21,341 nucleotides of DNA from a virus. The position numbers and the translations under genes are program-made. Location: positions 1 to 21,341 of IMG/VR virus record IMGVR_UViG_3300022222_000027; one strand, given 5' to 3'. Of the stretch, positions 2,555 through 16,762 are shown in pieces. The first letter of the stretch is position 1, and every line of letters starts with the position of its first letter. The notes beneath the pieces were generated by a model that did not search any database, was not told the DNA's origin, and saw only the letters and a list, made by a program, of their open reading frames with translations.

Positions 2555-5500
2555 CAGTTATTCCTCCGACTGACTTGATCGATCGCGACTCCCAGCTTGC
2601 CTGCGATCTGCCCAGCAGACGCGCGGAACGACCCGATGTCTGGCGTCTGGATATTCATGGTGACCTGGACGGCCGTCTTCCTCCCGTGTCCGCCCATCCC
2701 GCGCATGAAGTCCGGATCCTTCAGTTTCTCCAGGGGAATGACTGCTTCTGGCCCGGCTTCACCCAACATGGCGAACGTCGGCTTGCGGAACATCCCACCC
2801 TCGGCGGCGCCGTGGGCGCTCTCCATGATCGCCTCGTAGTCGACCGGGGCGGAGCCGCCGCCGCCGCCGCCGCCGCCACCGCCACCGTCGTCGCTGAAGA
2901 GTTTAGATATAAATGACATAGCGCCCTCAGCGTCACCGCCACCGCCACCGTCACCGCCACCGCCCTCTTTGCTCATCAGGCTGGCCACGAAATCTTTGGC
3001 GGTCTGCTCGGCTAGCTCGGTCATCAGGTTGTTCCAGATATCCGAGATCGTGTCCGCCATGGACTCCCAGTCGCCGGTGATCGCGCTGGTCAACGCGGAT
3101 CCCAACAACTCACGCAGCGAGCCCTGGAATTCGTCCGCCCACTGCTGCAAGAGAGTCCCGTGCTCCGCGTAGAATTCGCGCTCCTCGGCCAGGAGTTGCT
3201 TCGTGCGCGTGAGCCCGAGGGCCTGCGCGGACTCGATCGATGCGCCAGCGTCTAAGTAGGCATCGACCTCCGCGTAGATCTGCTCTTGGCGCCGCATCTC
3301 ATAGGCGTCCCAAGCGGCCTGCAATTGCACGGTCGTAGCTACTCCGCCGTCCAGTATGGCCTGGAAGCCAGCCATCTGAGTGGCCTTGGTCGCATCAGCG
3401 GACGCTTGCGCGGCCTCTGGATCGAAGATCGGGCCGATGAATGACTTGGACTCCCGCAAGGCGGCCGCGGCCTCCATCGACCCGCCAGCCTGCATGAAGT
3501 CGGCGACCTCCCTGTCGAGTTGCTCCTTGCGGATCCGGTGATAGCCGTCCCACGCCATCTGGATCTGCTCGACGGTGCCGACGCCTGCCTCCAGGATCGC
3601 CTGGAACCCGTCAAGTTGAACCGCCTTGGCCTGGGCCAGAGCTTCCGGGTCATATTCCGGGCCGGTGAACTCGCCCTGCGACTTCGCTGCGCGCAGGAGT
3701 TCGGCTTCCTCCATCGTCCCCCCGGCCTTCAGGAACGCGTCTACGGTCTCATCTATCTCCCTGCGCTCCGATTCGTGGAGCGCGGTCCACACAGACTGGA
3801 GTTGAGCTGTGGTCCCGAGCCCGGAGGCAAGGACCGCCTTGTATCCGTCGACCTGCGCCTGAAGGGACTTCTTCGCTGCCGTGACCCCCCCGCCTTCCTC
3901 GTCGCCGAGTTCATCGAAAATCCCTGGGATCTGGACCTTCGAATAGTCTCCCCCCAGGAGTTCCTCCACCGTGCCCTTCAGTTTGTTGGCTCCGGTCTGC
4001 GCGCGGACGAAGTCGTCCAGGATCGCCTGGCCAGGCGAGCGAGTGTCCATGTCCTTCACGCCGTCTGTCCACGCGTCGACGATTCCATTGACGGCGTCTT
4101 CAGACGCCTTCGCACCTTGCCTCCAAGCATCTGTCGCGTGCTGGACCAAGCTTTTAAGCGATTTTCCGACGCCGCTGAAATCCAACTGAATCAGGGAATT
4201 GAGCGCATTCCACACGTCGCCGATGGCGCCCGCGATGTGGCCCAGATGGATGAACACCACCTTCAGAACACCGGCGATGACGTTCCCGATCGTCTTGATC
4301 GTGGCCTCTACCACCTCGAAGAGGTTAGTTCCCAGGATCCCCAGCAATGCCCAGAACTCTTCCCATGGGGTTGGATCTGGCGGTGCGAGCGCGACGATCA
4401 TCTTTCCGGCCGTCGCTTCCATCGCCATTTCGGCCTCGGTCATCGGGCCGATGAACCCGTCGTCGACCAACCTTCTCATAGCACCGACAACACGATCGGA
4501 TCTGGTCTCGATCCCTCCGAAAGCCTCTGCGAACGCTTGGGACATAGCGGCCAACAACACGACCAAGAGGCCGACCAACTTTGATACCCCTACGATGATC
4601 GTCGCCAACCCCTGGACGAACTGGTTGATGAGGGATCGGTTTTCCTGGACCCACTTTGTCAACGCCCTGATCTCTCCGGCCAGTTCCGCTTCGAATTGCT
4701 CGAACGCTTGGATGGCGGTGTTCTCCACCGTGGCCATGAGTTGCTTGAACGCCGTCTCGGTCGTGCCGCGCATAATGTCGGATAGAGTTTTCGCTTCTCC
4801 ACCGACGTTGCGTAGGGCGTTCTGGAATTCACGCGACTCCTTGGTCAACTGGGCCAGCACGAACGCAACGCGTCCGCCTTGTCGGCCGAATAGTTTGAGG
4901 AAGTCGTTCGGCGATGCGCCGCGGCTGTTGAGTTCAACCAGAACGTCGACGAGGTCGGTACTCTCTAGGCCCAACATAGACGCCGCGTGGGTCGCCTTGG
5001 TGAACGCCTGGGCCAGGTTGGTTCCCGCCAGAGATCCGCGAAGGCCGGCATTCCCCAGCACGCCGAGCAACCCAGCGGTTTCTTCGATCGTGTATCCGAA
5101 TGACGCAGCGACCGGCGAGGCGTACTTGAACGCCTCGCCCAAGTCGGCCATGTCAGTCGCCGATCGGTTGACGGCTCCGACAAAAACGTCGGTGATGCGA
5201 CCCATGTCTCGAGTTTCCAAGCCGAAGCTGTGCATCGCGGCGGCGGCCAGACGCGCGGATTCTTCCAGCGAGAACTGTGCGGCGGTCGCGAGGTTGAAAA
5301 TATGCGGCATGGCCTGGACGGACTTTGCCGCATCGAAGCCAGACTGCCCGAGTTGTTTGAAGGCTTCAGCAGCTTTGATGGCGCCAAACTCGGTCGACTC
5401 GCCGAGTTTGAATGCTTCGGCGCGCATCAACGCGATTTGCTCCGTCGTGGCTTCCATGACAGCGCCGGCTACGGTCAGTTCGTGCGTGAACTTGGACCCG

Positions 5501-8477: not shown

Positions 8478-8507
8478 CCCCCCCCCGCCGAGAATAGCGG
8501 ATTCTCA
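8478..8507 (-). other. Intergenic hairpin and C9/G9 homopolymer after the methyltransferase gene
   Basis: The methyltransferase stop codon is immediately followed on the minus strand by an inverted repeat GAGAAT-CCGCT-ATTCTC (8507-8491). A run of nine G (nine C on the plus strand, 8478-8486) comes a few bases later. There is no T-run, so this is not a standard intrinsic terminator. It marks the junction between the modification island and the connector genes. Confidence 0.5.
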
Positions 8508-9143
8508 GGGCCTACGGCAGAAGACGAACGTCTCGATGTCTTCCCTGCCGGCGCGTGACTCCAAATCGTTCACCTCCAGGCATTCATAGCCGAGCCCGCG
8601 CGCCCAGCGGATCAGTCCGGCCCGGGTCCAGTACCAGAGGTGCTCGCCGGGCTTGAAGTGCTTGCTCCTGAGTACGTGGTCACGATCGCGGTAGATCGGC
8701 ATGGTCAAGAAGGCGAACTCAGACGCGCGGACGAAGGCGTCACTCGCCCTGGGGATGTGCTCCAGTGAGTCCCAGAAAGTCATCGACTTGTTCCAGCCAT
8801 GGAGATCCGGAACGAAGATCGCGCGTTCTTGCAGCCAGGCGACGGCCCTGGGGTTCAAGTCGGTCCCGAAGGTGTTCGGGCGGGCCTCGACGAACTGACC
8901 GCACCCGATGCCGACATCGAGCAGGAACGCGCTCGACGGGAGATACTTCGCGACGAGTTCCGTCCGGATCTCGGTCAGCTTGACGCCCATCGGGCTCGCC
9001 GCGCGGTCGATGTATTCTTGCCAATAGTTCTGGCCGTACTCCATCGGCTTCGAATCGCAGTAACCGAGGCCGAGATCATCCAGCCACGTCAGAGATCCGG
9101 ACCCGATCGGTTCACCGTTGCTCAAAACATCATTCCTGATCAT
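8505..9143 (-). CDS. SAM-dependent class I methyltransferase
   Basis: The 212-aa product (ATG at 9143, ATGA overlap with the GT9-like gene) has the Rossmann methyltransferase motifs. Motif I is LLDVGIGCGQF at about 74-84. An acidic residue ends strand 2 in GTDLNP (93-98). A later MTFWDSLEHIP segment matches the LEH motif of the Methyltransf_23/11-type families. The last third (KHFKPGEHLWYWTRAGLIRWARGLGYE) is the usual lid/cap of sugar- and small-molecule-type enzymes. The substrate is not shown by the sequence. Context with glycosyltransferases and a cupin suggests O-methylation of a glycan, but methylation of another phage or host target is possible. Confidence 0.85.
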   Translation of the reverse strand: MIRNDVLSNGEPIGSGSLTWLDDLGLGYCDSKPMEYGQNYWQEYIDRAASPMGVKLTEIRTELVAKYLPSSAFLLDVGIGCGQFVEARPNTFGTDLNPRAVAWLQERAIFVPDLHGWNKSMTFWDSLEHIPRASDAFVRASEFAFLTMPIYRDRDHVLRSKHFKPGEHLWYWTRAGLIRWARGLGYECLEVNDLESRAGREDIETFVFCRRP

Positions 9144-9286
9144 GCCGATTCCTGATTCAACGATCCGAGCGGGCTCTTGCGATCGGGACTTACAGGATCT
9201 CCACAGGCGTTTAGCGCCTCCGCGCAACTCGCGGCGGCTTTTATGTTGAGAGCGGCGTTCCAGTCAGCGTTCTCGGTGAAGCCTCC
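9140..9286 (-). mobile_element. TnpB C-terminal remnant fused in frame to the GT9-like gene
   Basis: The last 48 residues of the GT9-like protein read GGFTENADWNAALNI, then KAAASCAEALNACGDPV, ending LGSLNQESA. The block T-x-N-A-D-x-N-A-A-x-N-I is the third RuvC motif (with its catalytic Asp) of TnpB from IS200/IS605 or IS607 elements. The pattern AxxxxxACGDPV...KQE-like tail is the usual TnpB end. The rest of TnpB, including the zinc ribbon, is absent, so this is a relic left after deletion, joined in frame to the host gene. Recognition is from memory of family patterns. Confidence 0.72.
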
Positions 9287-10180
9287 TGTGAGTCGGAGCA
9301 AATCATCCGCGGCGCGACCCGGAGAGAAGTCTTCCATCTCGAGCGAGGAATACTTGGCTCCTGGTTGGACCCAGTTTGACCGGAAGCCTGAATTCGGATA
9401 GCGCTTGCGATTCCAGACCATGACCGTTGGCCGGCCGAAGTACGTGGTCAGGATCGTGTTTCCGTTGGCGAACCCAACCATCCCATCGCATCCCCGTAGG
9501 AGTGCGAAGTACTCGTCTGGATCGGTTTGTCCGCACATGTTGAACTCTCGTGGGCGCCCTAGCTTGTCGGCGAACTCGGAATCCCAAGGTAAGCCGACCT
9601 GGAGAATGCGATGTCCCGGAAAGCTCGCCTCCAGCCGAGTCAGCAGATTGCGAACAGACTGGACTCCCAGTTCGTTCGCCCACAAGAGGGCGGAAAAGTA
9701 GGTCAGGATCCAGGGTCCCTTGGCGCGGTGCTCGAGCGCGAAGGCCGTTTCCTGCGCGGCCTCCAGGATCGGGTAGTCCCACTCCGGCTCCGAGCCCATC
9801 GCGTTGTCGATCGGTTTGCCCAACTCCATCCAGCCATTCAACGCGAACGCGAAGTCGAACCCACAATAGTTCGAGATCACGGTTCGGTCCGTCCGGCACA
9901 ACTCGCGGAGCTGCGCCCCGTAAATCCTCGGTATCACCATGTAGTCGACGAATCGGAGGAAGGGGACCCTTTGGATGAACTCGGCCGAGCGGCGGGGGCC
10001 GCCCATGTCCCAGAGCCACACGTCTGCCTCGGCTATGGCGCAGTGCTTCGAGAGAAAGTCGCGGAGTTTCAGGATCACCCAATGGCAATCCCCCAGCCCT
10101 GGCGGGAGGAGAATGCGAGGTCGGGCTCCGTCCCTGGTGTGCTTGGCGAGAAGATTTGGGTTCCGGGGTGGAGCGATCAT
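9140..10180 (-). CDS. GT9-like (heptosyltransferase-fold) protein with TnpB-derived C-terminal tail
   Basis: The 346-aa product starts at the ATG at 10180, in an ATGA overlap with the upstream paralogue. A long open frame further upstream lies within that gene and is not used. The N-terminal ILLPPGLGDCHWVILKLRDF is a GT9-type G-x-G-D loop. The C-terminal half has GCDGMVGFANGNTILTTYFG, then RPTVMVW, the nucleotide-sugar site region of GT9/GT-B enzymes (ADP-heptose type). It is a paralogue of the next gene upstream. Residues about 299-346 do not belong to the enzyme fold: they match the end of transposon TnpB proteins (see the separate entry). The donor and acceptor sugars are unknown. Confidence 0.78.
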   Translation of the reverse strand: MIAPPRNPNLLAKHTRDGARPRILLPPGLGDCHWVILKLRDFLSKHCAIAEADVWLWDMGGPRRSAEFIQRVPFLRFVDYMVIPRIYGAQLRELCRTDRTVISNYCGFDFAFALNGWMELGKPIDNAMGSEPEWDYPILEAAQETAFALEHRAKGPWILTYFSALLWANELGVQSVRNLLTRLEASFPGHRILQVGLPWDSEFADKLGRPREFNMCGQTDPDEYFALLRGCDGMVGFANGNTILTTYFGRPTVMVWNRKRYPNSGFRSNWVQPGAKYSSLEMEDFSPGRAADDLLRLTGGFTENADWNAALNIKAAASCAEALNACGDPVSPDRKSPLGSLNQESA

Positions 10181-11112
10181 CCTCCCCGCAGGGAGAACTC
10201 CCTGGGTTGCCCGCAAGCGAGGATCAGTTCCGCCGCCTCTTCGGCCGCCTGCTCCGGATGGAGGGTTTCCACCCATGCGGGGAGGTAGATGGTCCCATTG
10301 CGTGATTCGTCGACCCATGATGTTGACATCCCCTTCCCGAAGTAGTCCGACCAGAGCATATAGGTCGGTATCTTCAGGTGCGTCGCAAGCATCCCGTTCC
10401 CGCCACACCAGCCCACGAACCCATCGGCGCATCGGACCATGGCCATGAACTCGTCCAGGGTAGTCTTGCCGACTCGGCTGGTGAGCGTCTCAGGATAGGC
10501 CCATTCGTCGAGGAGGCGGTCAGTCCACGGCACATCCCAGGTGGAGCCGGTCAACGTCAAGCGATACCCACCCAGCAGCCTGGCCAACTCAGCGATGAAT
10601 CGTCGAATCGTTTGAATCGGCCACGCGCGAAGCCAGGTCTTGAACATGCCCTGATCCGAAAAGTACAGCATGACCTCAGGGGTCGACACGGCGCGGTACT
10701 GGGCGAGGAACAATTCCTCCCCGGCCGTGACCCCTAACTGGTAATTCCAGTTCGTTTCACACCCGCCCAGCGCCTGGCTGAGATGCGTTCCATTGCGCAG
10801 CTTCCCGTTGGGGCACAGGAACCAGTCGAAGCCATCGACCTGATCGATGTCGCGAGTTCCGGCCAGATAGCACGCCGAGAACTGCTTGGGAGCATCGTCG
10901 CGTGCGCGATTCCAGTATCCACCCGGCGTGCAAAAAGCCACGCGCTCCACCAGCCCGAGTGAACGTGGTCGACCGTCCAGATTCCAGACCCAGATCTCGG
11001 GCGGGATATCTATCTCTCGTTGCTTCATGAACCCCTCGAGCTTCAACAGCACGAAATGGAGGTCTCCCATACCGGAAACGACGAGGATCTTCTTCGGAGC
11101 CTGCTCGCTCAC
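10177..11112 (-). CDS. GT9-like (heptosyltransferase-fold) glycosyltransferase
   Basis: The 311-aa product has an N-terminal KILVVSGMGDLHFVLLKLEGF loop (G-M-G-D) and WVWNLDGRPRS. The C-terminal domain has RCADGFVGWCGGNGMLATHL (228-246) and IPTYMLW. These positions fit the two halves of GT-B, GT9-type enzymes, which move heptose or similar sugars from nucleotide donors. The gene is a tandem paralogue of the following one. It starts at a GTG with only a weak ribosome site, directly after the region holding the plus-strand zinc gene, so start certainty is moderate. The role is probably glycan building on the virion or host surface; the substrate is not known. Confidence 0.75.
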   Translation of the reverse strand: MSEQAPKKILVVSGMGDLHFVLLKLEGFMKQREIDIPPEIWVWNLDGRPRSLGLVERVAFCTPGGYWNRARDDAPKQFSACYLAGTRDIDQVDGFDWFLCPNGKLRNGTHLSQALGGCETNWNYQLGVTAGEELFLAQYRAVSTPEVMLYFSDQGMFKTWLRAWPIQTIRRFIAELARLLGGYRLTLTGSTWDVPWTDRLLDEWAYPETLTSRVGKTTLDEFMAMVRCADGFVGWCGGNGMLATHLKIPTYMLWSDYFGKGMSTSWVDESRNGTIYLPAWVETLHPEQAAEEAAELILACGQPREFSLRGG

Positions 11113-11208
11113 TGCGGTCCGCTGAGCTGGGTTGCCGGTACTGACTGTCCTGCAACTAACCCAGAATTCAAAGGCTCCGGCATGTTTTTTCTGCTATCCT
11201 TCTCTGAC

Positions 11209-11571
11209 ATGAAAGCTCCTGATTTAACTCACCAGGTTTTCGGTCGACTGACCGTGCTTCGTCTCTACTGCATCTCCCACGACCGTCATGCAGTCTGGGA
11301 ATGCCTCTGCATCTGCGGGAATATGCGCACCGTTTTGTCGAAGAACCTTCAAAGCGGCGCAACCCAGAGCTGCGGGTGTCGAAGGAAACTGCCTCCTTCG
11401 CAGGAAAAGCCACGGAAGTCGCGCGCGGCACCCGAGAAGCAGCGCCCCGACACTTGCTATCGTGGGCATAAATTCACTCTAGAGAACACATACGTGAATC
11501 CGACCAAGCTCTTCCGTGTTTGTCTCCAGTGCCGTAAGGACAGGGACAAGGACTTGAAGAAAGGTTCGTAG
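11209..11571 (+). CDS. Small zinc-binding protein with homing-endonuclease-type DNA-binding motifs
   Basis: This 120-aa basic protein is one of three plus-strand genes and the only one inside the minus-strand operon. It begins MKAPDLTHQVFGRLTVLRLY, the D-L-x-x-x-x-F-G-R-L-T-V-L start common in phage AP2/HNH homing-endonuclease proteins. It continues with W-E-C-L-C-I-C-G-N and then LQSGATQSCGC. The C-terminal CYRGHKFTLENTY plus RVCLQCRKDR (C-x-x-G-H, C-x-x-C) resembles a zinc module that often precedes HNH nucleases, but no HNH catalytic core is visible. It may be an intron-less homing-type element or a regulator. It sits next to a TnpB remnant. Confidence 0.7.
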   Translation: MKAPDLTHQVFGRLTVLRLYCISHDRHAVWECLCICGNMRTVLSKNLQSGATQSCGCRRKLPPSQEKPRKSRAAPEKQRPDTCYRGHKFTLENTYVNPTKLFRVCLQCRKDRDKDLKKGS

Positions 11572-11619
11572 GCCCAAGCTATCTCGAGCGAGAAGGCGGT
11601 GAAAAGTTTTACCTCCTCC

Positions 11620-11635
11620 CCGCCCTAAAGGGCGG
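11620..11635 (-). other. IS200/IS605-type right-end hairpin (possible guide-RNA scaffold end)
   Basis: On the minus strand the TnpB stop codon lies within a perfect hairpin CCGCCC-TTTA-GGGCGG followed by GGAGGAGGTAAAAC. This is the recognisable right-end form of many IS200/IS605 elements, where the tnpB 3' end and the omega-RNA scaffold overlap and the guide follows directly. Only this end is present; the left end and most of tnpB are missing. Confidence 0.6.
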
Positions 11636-11776
11636 AGATTCCGGGGGAGGCCCCGGTGGTTGACGCTTCAACGAACGGAACGCCAGTGCCCATCGACACC
11701 ACCCGGCTTACCCGTTCTCCACGTCCGTTTTCCGTCTCGGCAAGTCCTGCCGCGACGACGTTCTTAGCGGCGATTA
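11625..11776 (-). pseudogene. Second TnpB C-terminal remnant, next to the cupin gene
   Basis: Directly after the cupin stop the minus strand reads, in the -1 frame relative to the cupin, about 48 residues: AAKNVVAAGLAETENGRGER, ending GASPGISAL with TAG inside a right-end hairpin. A-A-K-N-V-x-A-A-G-L-A matches the end of TnpB (the helix after RuvC motif III), and the final proline/isoleucine-rich tail is typical of the element end. No zinc ribbon, no start and no first part of tnpB remain. It differs in sequence from the remnant fused to the GT9-like gene, so two different elements are represented. Confidence 0.65.
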
Positions 11777-12214
11777 GCCGCTCCCGGGCCTCCGCTCCAT
11801 GTCTCCGCCGAGTTCGAACATGCCGCCCTCGGACCTCCGCTCGATGTCTCCGTCGAGTTCGATCATGCCGTCATCGACCCATGCAATTTCGATCATATCC
11901 GAATCCAGAATCCCCCGAAACTCGTGGAACTTTCCCGGCCCGACGTGATGCGTTTCCCCGGGGAAGATCCGGAAACTGGTCTTCGTTGGCCTGCCTGGAG
12001 CCCTGTGGTTAACGGTCTCTCGACATGCCTCAACCAGGCCAGTCAACACCACGAACTTGTTGTGTTTCTTGAGGTGCTGGTGCCAAGAACAGCGGTAGCC
12101 CTTCTTGACTTGAAGGTAGTGCGCCGTGTGGGTAGCCGACGCTGAAAGCAACGCGCGCCGACCCCAGATCTTCTCCTCCCACACCACGCTATCTGTTCCA
12201 GATGTGTAACTCAC
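11774..12214 (-). CDS. Cupin-domain protein
   Basis: The start is taken as the GTG at 12214, overlapping the stop of the 46-aa membrane protein gene as GTGA, with a G-rich ribosome site just upstream; the length is 146 aa. Cupin motif 1 is GYRCSWHQHLKKHNKF (H45, H47, H51) and motif 2 is PGETHHVGPGKFHEF (H89/H90, P-G, H97), fitting a metal-binding barrel of the mannose-6-phosphate isomerase/sugar epimerase type. The N-terminus has VVWEEKIWGRRALLS, a form common in phage cupin proteins. The last 30 residues are a duplicated 15-residue unit. Role in the island is probably sugar or sugar-nucleotide handling, inferred from context. Confidence 0.78.
   Translation of the reverse strand: MSYTSGTDSVVWEEKIWGRRALLSASATHTAHYLQVKKGYRCSWHQHLKKHNKFVVLTGLVEACRETVNHRAPGRPTKTSFRIFPGETHHVGPGKFHEFRGILDSDMIEIAWVDDGMIELDGDIERRSEGGMFELGGDMERRPGSG
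11780..11869 (-). repeat. 45-bp tandem duplication at the cupin C-terminus
   Basis: The codons for GMIELDGDIERRSEG (11869-11825) are repeated as GMFELGGDMERRPGS (11824-11780) with a few changes. The two copies are clearly alignable at DNA level, for example TCGAACTCG and GAGCGGAGG in both. The second copy ends right at the TnpB remnant. Confidence 0.85.
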
Positions 12215-12351
12215 CAAACCCCCATCCAGAAGAGAACGACGTGTTTTAGATCCCGCATGAATAGCGGAATCGCCCATGCCAAGATAAAAAATGGCAGCAT
12301 GATCGCCAACAGTATGAACCGACAGCCGGCCCTGCGCCGATCCGTTGTCAC
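12211..12351 (-). CDS. 46-aa single-pass membrane protein
   Basis: A very short frame starts at GTG 12351, in a GTGA overlap with the stop of the GT8-like gene, and ends in a GTGA overlap with the cupin start. The product begins with a short basic stretch (TTDRRRAGCR), then FILLAIMLPFFILAWAIPLF, a clear membrane helix, and a final segment (LKHVVLFWMGVW) that may lie at the membrane surface or form a second short hydrophobic part. The two-sided coupling is strong evidence that it is a gene. The family is not recognised. It could anchor the modification enzymes or act at the host membrane. Confidence 0.6.
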   Translation of the reverse strand: MTTDRRRAGCRFILLAIMLPFFILAWAIPLFMRDLKHVVLFWMGVW

Positions 12352-13070
12352 GGGGACCAGTGTTCCCGCAGCCAGTCCGGGACCGGGGGCGGAACCTCGT
12401 GTGGGCGGGGCTTCCCATGGAACACCACCATGCTCGCCCCCGCGGGAAGAATGCATTTCCTGCCCCGAAGGTCCACCTTGAATGACAGAACGCCGTTGAG
12501 CGCGTCCTGGACGAAGCGAGACTCGATTCTCCTTGGACCGTCGCCCACGCGCGCGCGGATCCATTCCTGATCCCCCCTGAATCTGCCATGTCGACTCGTG
12601 AGCCCGACACTATTTCCAACATTCCACCACATAAACGGTTTAGAATTCATCTCATAGATGAACGCGTCCGTGAGCCATCTGTAGTCGCCGTTCCACCCCA
12701 TAACGCCAGAGCATCGATCCTGCTTGTAGAACCCGCGCAGCATCCAAAAAACCTCGCTGTTATCCTGGGCGCAGATTGCATCCGCCAGAGGATCGAGACT
12801 CCCCGTGATCACGGTGTCCAGATCCAGATACAGCACGGGACCCAACAGACGAAACAGTTCGATTTTCGACCACCAACCAGGCCACGAGAACTCCAACGGA
12901 GAGACGGTAAACGGCGGAATCTTCGGATGGCTGAATGCAACCCGGTCGTCGACGAGGAGGATTTTCTCGTGTTCCCGGGTGAGATGGCGCTCTACTCCGG
13001 CGAATAGCTTGGTGAAGTAGCTGGGATCATAATCCCCACCAGATCGATAGACCGCTGCGACGCGTAGCAT
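12348..13070 (-). CDS. GT8-like glycosyltransferase (GT-A fold, DxD motif)
   Basis: The 240-aa product (ATG at 13070; AGAGG five nt upstream) starts MLRVAAVYRSGGDYDP and has GWWSKIELFRLLGPVLYLDLD at about 65-85, with the metal/nucleotide-binding DxD motif as D83-L-D85. GT8 and related families show this arrangement: W-x-K-x-x-x-F then Y-L-D-x-D-T. The C-terminal HGKPRPHE segment resembles the conserved HxxGxxKP-like end. It would transfer a sugar from a nucleotide donor. It opens the modification island in transcription order. The acceptor is unknown. Confidence 0.8.
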   Translation of the reverse strand: MLRVAAVYRSGGDYDPSYFTKLFAGVERHLTREHEKILLVDDRVAFSHPKIPPFTVSPLEFSWPGWWSKIELFRLLGPVLYLDLDTVITGSLDPLADAICAQDNSEVFWMLRGFYKQDRCSGVMGWNGDYRWLTDAFIYEMNSKPFMWWNVGNSVGLTSRHGRFRGDQEWIRARVGDGPRRIESRFVQDALNGVLSFKVDLRGRKCILPAGASMVVFHGKPRPHEVPPPVPDWLREHWSP

Positions 13071-13091
13071 CAATGCCTCTTCTGTCTCCGT

Positions 13092-13125
13092 CCCCCCCAC
13101 CCCGTACGAGAGCCACGGGGGGGGG
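13092..13125 (-). other. Hairpin with C7 and G9 runs between the Ig-like gene and the modification island
   Basis: The plus strand has seven C (13092-13098), then CCCCGT (13100-13105), a 9-nt loop, ACGGGG (13115-13120) and a run reaching G9 (13117-13125). It can form a stem of about ten pairs with one mismatch. There is no T-run in either direction. The structure separates the Ig-like gene from the glycosyltransferase island and mirrors the C9 tract at its other end. Confidence 0.5.
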
Positions 13126-16048: not shown

Positions 16049-16762
16049 TCAGACGCAGGGATCGCTTCCCACCACACCGATATCTTTATCGACAGGGGGA
16101 GCCCGCTGCAACAAAATTCCCGGGTCCACGATCGGAAATTCCCGGATCGCACTCCCCGGCGTCGCATTCACGATCTCGATCCGCCGCCGCTCCGCATCCC
16201 GGGCAATGGCCGCGAAGCTGATCAGGAACTTCGAATAAGGCGCCTCCACCTTCCTCGCCCGACCCACCAGGCGCAACACCTTCTGCTGAATGGGCGCATA
16301 ATCGTCATGCCAGTGCGACCTCTCCCCCACGTCGCGCATGTCGAAGCCCAACAACACGATCCGCTTCGCCCCCAGAGCCACCGCCAGATTGATCGCACAC
16401 GCGCCCGACGAACGATTCCACGACAACGCACCGCCGCCGAACACCAAGCCCGCCGGCGACGTCTGCTTACGGCAGACCTTCACGCCCTTCACCCCGAGCA
16501 ACTTTATGCACGTCGTCACCTTCAGACCCGAGAACCCAAGCAGCTCACGCTCCCCGAACCGATGCCACCACGAACAGTCCGCGAAGAAACACACCTCCGC
16601 AAACGGGGCGATCTTGTGCGACTGGTTCACCGCAATCACCCGACGCCCCTGCAGCCCGGATACAGAAACGGCGGCCACCGATGGGCCGCCGCCTAAGATG
16701 AAACACTCGCCGCCCGGCCAGATCTCAGGAATCTGCCAGTACCTTCGCTCCCGATCAATCAC
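16049..16762 (-). CDS. DUF115 / MptE-like domain protein
   Basis: The 237-aa product starts at GTG 16762 (GTGA overlap with the gene before). It begins WQIPEIWPGGECFILGGGPS, a G-G-G-P-S loop, then GRRVIAVNQSHKIAPFAEVC. A later segment reads SSGACAINLAVALGAKRIVLL and GFDM. These are the motifs of the DUF115 (6-hydroxymethylpterin pyrophosphokinase MptE-like) fold, a Rossmann domain also found in flagellin-glycosylation accessory factors and in many phage genes. In this phage, placed after the capsid gene, a part in virion glycan handling is possible, but activity is not shown. Confidence 0.78.
   Translation of the reverse strand: MIDRERRYWQIPEIWPGGECFILGGGPSVAAVSVSGLQGRRVIAVNQSHKIAPFAEVCFFADCSWWHRFGERELLGFSGLKVTTCIKLLGVKGVKVCRKQTSPAGLVFGGGALSWNRSSGACAINLAVALGAKRIVLLGFDMRDVGERSHWHDDYAPIQQKVLRLVGRARKVEAPYSKFLISFAAIARDAERRRIEIVNATPGSAIREFPIVDPGILLQRAPPVDKDIGVVGSDPCV

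Follow-up and report, generated by a model that had tools for sequence, protein, structure and literature searches.

Two tnpB-derived omegaRNA remnants in a phage contig, one of them read in frame as the C-terminal tail of a glycosyltransferase-like protein

TnpB is thought to be the stock from which Cas12 arose. In the IS200/IS605 element ISDra2 the 3′ end of tnpB doubles as the scaffold of the guide RNA, termed reRNA or omegaRNA (Karvelis et al., 2021, PMC8612924). RAGATH-18 has been described as the reRNA core of IS607 TnpBs, where cleavage needs the pseudoknot PK1, which involves part of a conserved 3′ flanking motif (PMC11061315), while in Thermococcus kodakarensis some HgcC transcripts are found without an associated transposase gene (PMC4247193). 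In the 21,341-nt viral stretch analyzed here (IMG/VR record IMGVR_UViG_3300022222_000027; hereafter the window) the guide-RNA end of tnpB outlives the nuclease gene in two ways, as a tnpB-less RNA unit (copy B) and as a new protein end (copy A; Table 1). The reading that we consider probable is that tnpB elements inserted into this phage lineage and decayed to omegaRNA stumps, with one stump captured in frame as the tail of a glycosyltransferase (GT) that lies next to a methyltransferase (MTase).

Table 1. Positions of the tnpB remnants and neighboring genes in the window (R1, omegaRNA covariance model described in the text; RE, right end).
Feature	Position	Strand	Basis
MTase, start overlapping the GT stop as ATGA	8505..9143	-	PHROG 6564, E 1.7e-62
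GT9-like glycosyltransferase gene with tail, 346 aa	9140..10180	-	Translation, GT9 fold matches, 28 viral homologues
Copy A: TnpB C-terminal remnant, in frame as GT residues ~300-346	9143..9283	-	PHROG/Pfam matches, profile score, tnpB-type blastn matches
Copy A: omegaRNA/reRNA core within the GT coding sequence, RE hairpin lost	9149..9249	-	R1 71.5 bits, RAGATH-18, pair count
GT paralogue without tail, stop overlapping the GT start (ATGA)	10177..11112	-	E ~1e-32 to GT
HNH endonuclease-like gene facing copy B	11020..11571	+	PHROG 374, E 4e-17
Copy B: putative guide position in the flanking DNA	11586..11605	-	Expected from TnpB biology (PMC8612924)
Copy B: tnpB-less omegaRNA and RE remnant	11606..11772	-	R1 at 11660-11767, HgcC match, identity to L091/L090
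Copy B: RE hairpin, 9 bp, loop of 4	11617..11638	-	Fold -17.4 kcal/mol; plasmid matches
Copy B: final 48 TnpB residues	11628..11771	-	93.8% identical to L091 TnpB
Cysteine dioxygenase/cupin-like gene directly upstream of copy B	11774..12562	-	PHROG 7851, E 1.6e-8

An earlier, sequence-only reading of this DNA had assigned residues 299-346 of the GT to the C-terminus of TnpB. That observation is confirmed, with two corrections: the TnpB-like part begins near residue 300, and the final residues are closer to omegaRNA-region DNA than to any conserved TnpB peptide. The tail, which ends in TGGFTENADWNAALNIKAAASCAEALNACGDPVSPDRKSPLGSLNQESA, resembles the C-terminal region of TnpB (OrfB/Cas12f1-like) in several searches. 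GT residues 300-335 are matched by two transposase families of PHROG, 12300 (E 2.6e-4) and 506 (E 4e-3), the tail aligns with the end of Pfam PF07282 (its final 14 columns; E 0.035) and a profile of TnpB C-termini taken from other loci only scores 37.3 bits, against 12.7 bits for the best of about 2,000 shuffles of the tail's own residues; a search of NCBIfam returned nothing. At the DNA level, blastn of the 161-bp tail sequence against 7.3 Gb of plasmids matched nine records (E 5e-7 to 0.4) from Bifidobacterium, Nostoc and Streptomyces, most being annotated as TnpB or transposase and the rest carrying no annotation at the match. The frame of tnpB is also the one in which tblastn aligns the tail to four loci (L001, L002, L042 and L043). 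Searched by itself with tblastn, the tail matched nothing among plasmids or phages. The nearest source found for copy A is 72% identical over 25 residues only, with no close match in any collection searched. A further candidate relative among genome contigs (L040) was rejected as a chance match to DPVSPDRKSP. Neither copy encodes a nuclease with a complete RuvC domain and zinc ribbon, about 46 residues being left in copy A and 48 in copy B. The whole contig gave no match to PF07282 at E <= 0.001 and no full-length tnpB was found anywhere in its 21 kb, a fragment outside which such a gene could lie.

The RNA side of both copies was assessed with a covariance model (R1) of 16 tnpB 3′ ends, from plasmids and one phage contig, aligned without the window. 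Its structure has 23 pairs, 15 of which show changes on both sides, with 93.8% of alignment cells paired compared to 32-46% when the partner strand was slid as a control. Scanning the window with this independent model revealed a covarying omegaRNA scaffold core in copy A (71.5 bits) and in copy B (67.8 bits), the next, unrelated match scoring 10.5 bits; a scan of 55 relative loci (561 kb) gave no match. Copy A, which retains 19 of the 23 consensus pairs, aligns over positions 1-71 of the 71 in RAGATH-18 (Rfam RF03064; E 0.01), as does a Nostoc tnpB 3′ end over the whole core, with the score of copy A (27.0 bits) lying below the curated gathering threshold of 44.9 bits. The Nostoc cores are most like copy A in their 3′ half and carry the RE hairpin directly after GGAATC, the very point at which the homology of copy A to these elements stops, and copy A has no such hairpin, there being no stem of at least six perfect pairs in the 200 nt 3′ of its core. 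A decayed Nostoc-type RE hairpin at 9118-9147, into which a second model that includes the RE (R2) reaches weakly, was considered and rejected as unproven, its stem being mismatched and containing no perfect 6-bp stretch. Folded as a single strand, copy A is no stabler than its shuffles (z 0.78), and so only the covariance evidence was used for its RNA. It had been proposed that an RNA might still be made from the GT gene. The scaffold is indeed encoded in the tail, as R1 and RAGATH-18 indicate, but a useful RNA from copy A was an over-reading; having lost the RE hairpin and all else that would follow the core, its sequence should not yield a working or standard guide RNA.

Copy B, absent from the earlier reading, was found about 2.4 kb from copy A by the omegaRNA model scan. 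It forms 21 of the 21 consensus core pairs for which it has letters, two positions being gapped, and carries an RE hairpin (CTCCGCCC-TTTA-GGGCGGGG). HgcC (RF00062) is matched over positions 1-130 of 130 (E 1.2e-5), despite which the score of 32.2 bits stays below the curated threshold of 50. Over 165 bp copy B is 95.8-97% identical to the elements at L091 and L090. Derivation of copies A and B from one another by duplication was rejected, only short weak matches being found between them.

Copy B may possibly give rise to a guide RNA that works without a tnpB of its own. We nevertheless estimate it to be unlikely that copy B, and perhaps copy A, has been retained as a guide RNA acting in trans with TnpB supplied elsewhere. 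Such an RNA would be transcribed from the upstream phage gene, would load into a TnpB made by the host, by another phage infecting the cell or from some part of the genome outside the contig, and would cut or block DNA matching the flank, for example in rival phages without the insertion. The complete core pairing and intact RE hairpin of copy B are in keeping with this, as are tnpB-less copies in other viral contigs, one of them immediately behind a gene, the arrangement seen in copies A and B. Precedents exist in the HgcC transcripts without an associated transposase gene (PMC4247193) and in a frameshifted tldR locus whose guide has been suggested to act in trans (PMC13418256). Against it, an identity of 96-97% marks copy B as young, and in a young copy an intact structure would be expected without selection; moreover, the tip of its RE is altered from GATGTCAA to GAGGTAAAA. 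In addition, its guide flank had no exact match in viral contigs, no other site in the window with up to three mismatches and only matches of E >= 2 among phage records. A broader form of the proposal holds that this phage group carries tnpB-less omegaRNA genes behind structural or sugar-modifying genes which supply trans guides to co-resident TnpBs, the GT tail being one now read as protein; this we regard as quite unlikely, and if true it would amount to RNA-guided homing, or to competition between phages, in a parasitic form that contributes guides alone.

Pairing between a TnpB guide and its target matters most at the 5′ start of the guide. A pairing of the copy B guide with the GT gene (repeat D2) was rejected as chance, the paired part lying away from that start and repeats of this size being common in the region. 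The cupin-like gene, for which no relatives were found, ends in a 45-bp tandem duplication (D1, 11777-11866; 87% identical) that immediately precedes copy B. On the other side the HNH gene, possibly encoding a free-standing homing endonuclease, ends about 15 bp from the putative guide.

An exact search of viral contigs for the RE of copy B identified five loci. Two of these (L091 and L090) hold full-length elements with TnpBs that share 93% identity, the intact TnpB of copy-B type at L091 spanning 435 codons stop to stop. L090 carries two tnpB frames (12283-11084 and 5629-4550, minus strand) together with a shorter tnpB-less copy (3482-3599, minus strand) behind another gene (ORF 3616-4326). 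The remaining loci, L089, L092 and L093, share a different omegaRNA/RE copy (L092:9018-9171, minus strand) with a core of 54 bits, which is tnpB-less in L092, where the surroundings are readable. The 5′ break falls within roughly the last 60 tnpB codons in copy A, copy B, L092 and L090. Four cases, found partly via RNA and RE searches, are too few to claim a mechanism, but this region would not be favored if a ~1.3-kb gene were truncated at random. In plasmids, 1,702 records match copy B, most of those listed doing so over the RE, and 1,517 are from Klebsiella, including one locus (L088) that is a truncated tnpB end with its RE; truncated ends of this kind are common. In L086, a plasmid of Nostoc sp. 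C052, an RE hairpin match that bears no tnpB annotation adjoins a methyltransferase gene.

The body of the GT was read as a complete GT9-like fold and the structural evidence agrees with this. Foldseek matched the predicted structure to heptosyltransferase II (1psw, E 5.6e-10) and the GT9 protein 3tov (E 6e-8), in keeping with a GT9/GT-B fold, while a Pfam search of the GT gave no GT9 match. AlphaFold, run with 16 sequences, predicted the full protein as a confident body (pLDDT ~92 for residues 20-300) followed by a low-confidence tail, with pLDDT of 63-76 at residues 301-330 and 39-45 beyond 330. By its gene content the phage appears to be rich in sugar-modifying genes; a sialyltransferase-like gene (16049-16762, minus strand; PHROG 4603, E 1.3e-35) and a further glycosyltransferase (12348-13100; PHROG 1962) lie in the same window.

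Relatives of the GT were gathered with an alignment of four GTs, giving 28 viral loci, a single-sequence query having found no matches in viral contigs or in the phage collection. The MTase adjoins the GT in 27 of the 28, and the triplet of GT paralogue, GT and MTase is also present in two of the three closest relatives (L046 and L047 of L046-L048; 48-50% identity). None of the 28 has a tail, their GTs ending at the last GT-B helix, which is where the tail of the window begins, and as such the tail is not part of this GT family. The ATGA overlap of GT and MTase noted earlier is present at 9140-9143. That the fusion had created the coupling of the two genes is not supported, since in the tail-less L046 the ATG of the MTase lies inside the final 8 nt of the GT gene, with L049 and L051 being similar. 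The coupling thus predates the capture, although the present ATGA sits at the captured junction. The MTase of the window starts 20 codons ahead of a conserved Trp, compared to about 9 in L046 and a similarly small distance in most other relatives compared; because its N-terminus is longer than theirs, new DNA may reach beyond the MTase start. A 9-bp direct repeat (ATCAGGAAT) is found at the tail/MTase junction (9131-9157, minus strand), a possible trace of a deletion.

As the GT domain is complete without the tail and the gene overlap existed before, the tail is most likely tolerated rather than useful. A useful C-terminal domain, serving for example in oligomerization or in spacing to the MTase start, is improbable. 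The frame has stayed open over 46 codons, as would be expected anyway of a frame inherited from tnpB, and a helix is predicted at 305-325 (pLDDT 63-76), but residues 331-346 are disordered and relatives at 48-50% identity manage without a tail. Hardly credible is an assembly artefact joining a tnpB fragment to phage DNA, since, while this is a 21-kb virus record from a contig collection and tnpB ends are repeated DNA, it would require a pair of joins spaced by about 140 bp with the frame kept, both between genes that are adjacent in nearly all relatives, for a sequence without a close match in the searched collections and with copy B as an independent second case.

In the history that we favor, IS200/IS605-type tnpB elements would have entered the phage lineage at least twice, with all but the 3′ end of the element being lost at both sites. 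For copy A we infer an insertion near the GT-MTase junction followed by removal of the RE and of the 5′ portion, leaving a remnant that starts just ahead of the last RuvC motif and stops where the omegaRNA core ends. By chance this remnant would have become attached, with the tnpB frame preserved, at the point where the GT naturally terminates, resulting in an extra tail of about 46 residues, a short helix and then disorder, with a stop overlapping the MTase start. Copy B would be a younger stump that keeps both its omegaRNA core and its RE hairpin. An intact parental insertion at the GT-MTase junction was found in no virus, and so insertion followed by deletion is not separable from an illegitimate recombination event that brought in a tnpB end of foreign origin.

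In the open-licence papers searched we came across no account of a phage enzyme whose tail is an in-frame tnpB end, combined with another tnpB-less omegaRNA in that phage and with comparable copies in other viral contigs. If the tnpB-less copies of phages are expressed, they would add a trans-guide layer for TnpB systems in viruses; if not, the locus offers an example of a structured transposon RNA turned into an in-frame protein tail. The pairing of GT and MTase resembles that of Pseudomonas phage PP9W2 (L044), where the genes likewise adjoin and overlap beside head-tail genes, whereas the window GT is tailed and that of PP9W2 has no detectable sequence similarity to it. Like the TldR-gRNA of Enterobacter prophages (PMC13418256), the remnants are TnpB-derived RNA sequences on a phage, but in the window no TldR protein was found and there is no sign of a host target. 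Copy B matches the HgcC RNA over its full length, yet scores below the gathering threshold and is located in a phage, HgcC having been described in archaea. Copy A likewise aligns to the whole 71-nt RAGATH-18 core, although it scores below that family's threshold and lacks the conserved 3′ flanking motif. Compared with ISDra2 TnpB, the contig holds no full tnpB, and copy A is without RE and translated within another protein, whereas the core model fits both copies and copy B adds to it the RE hairpin and flanking "guide" DNA.
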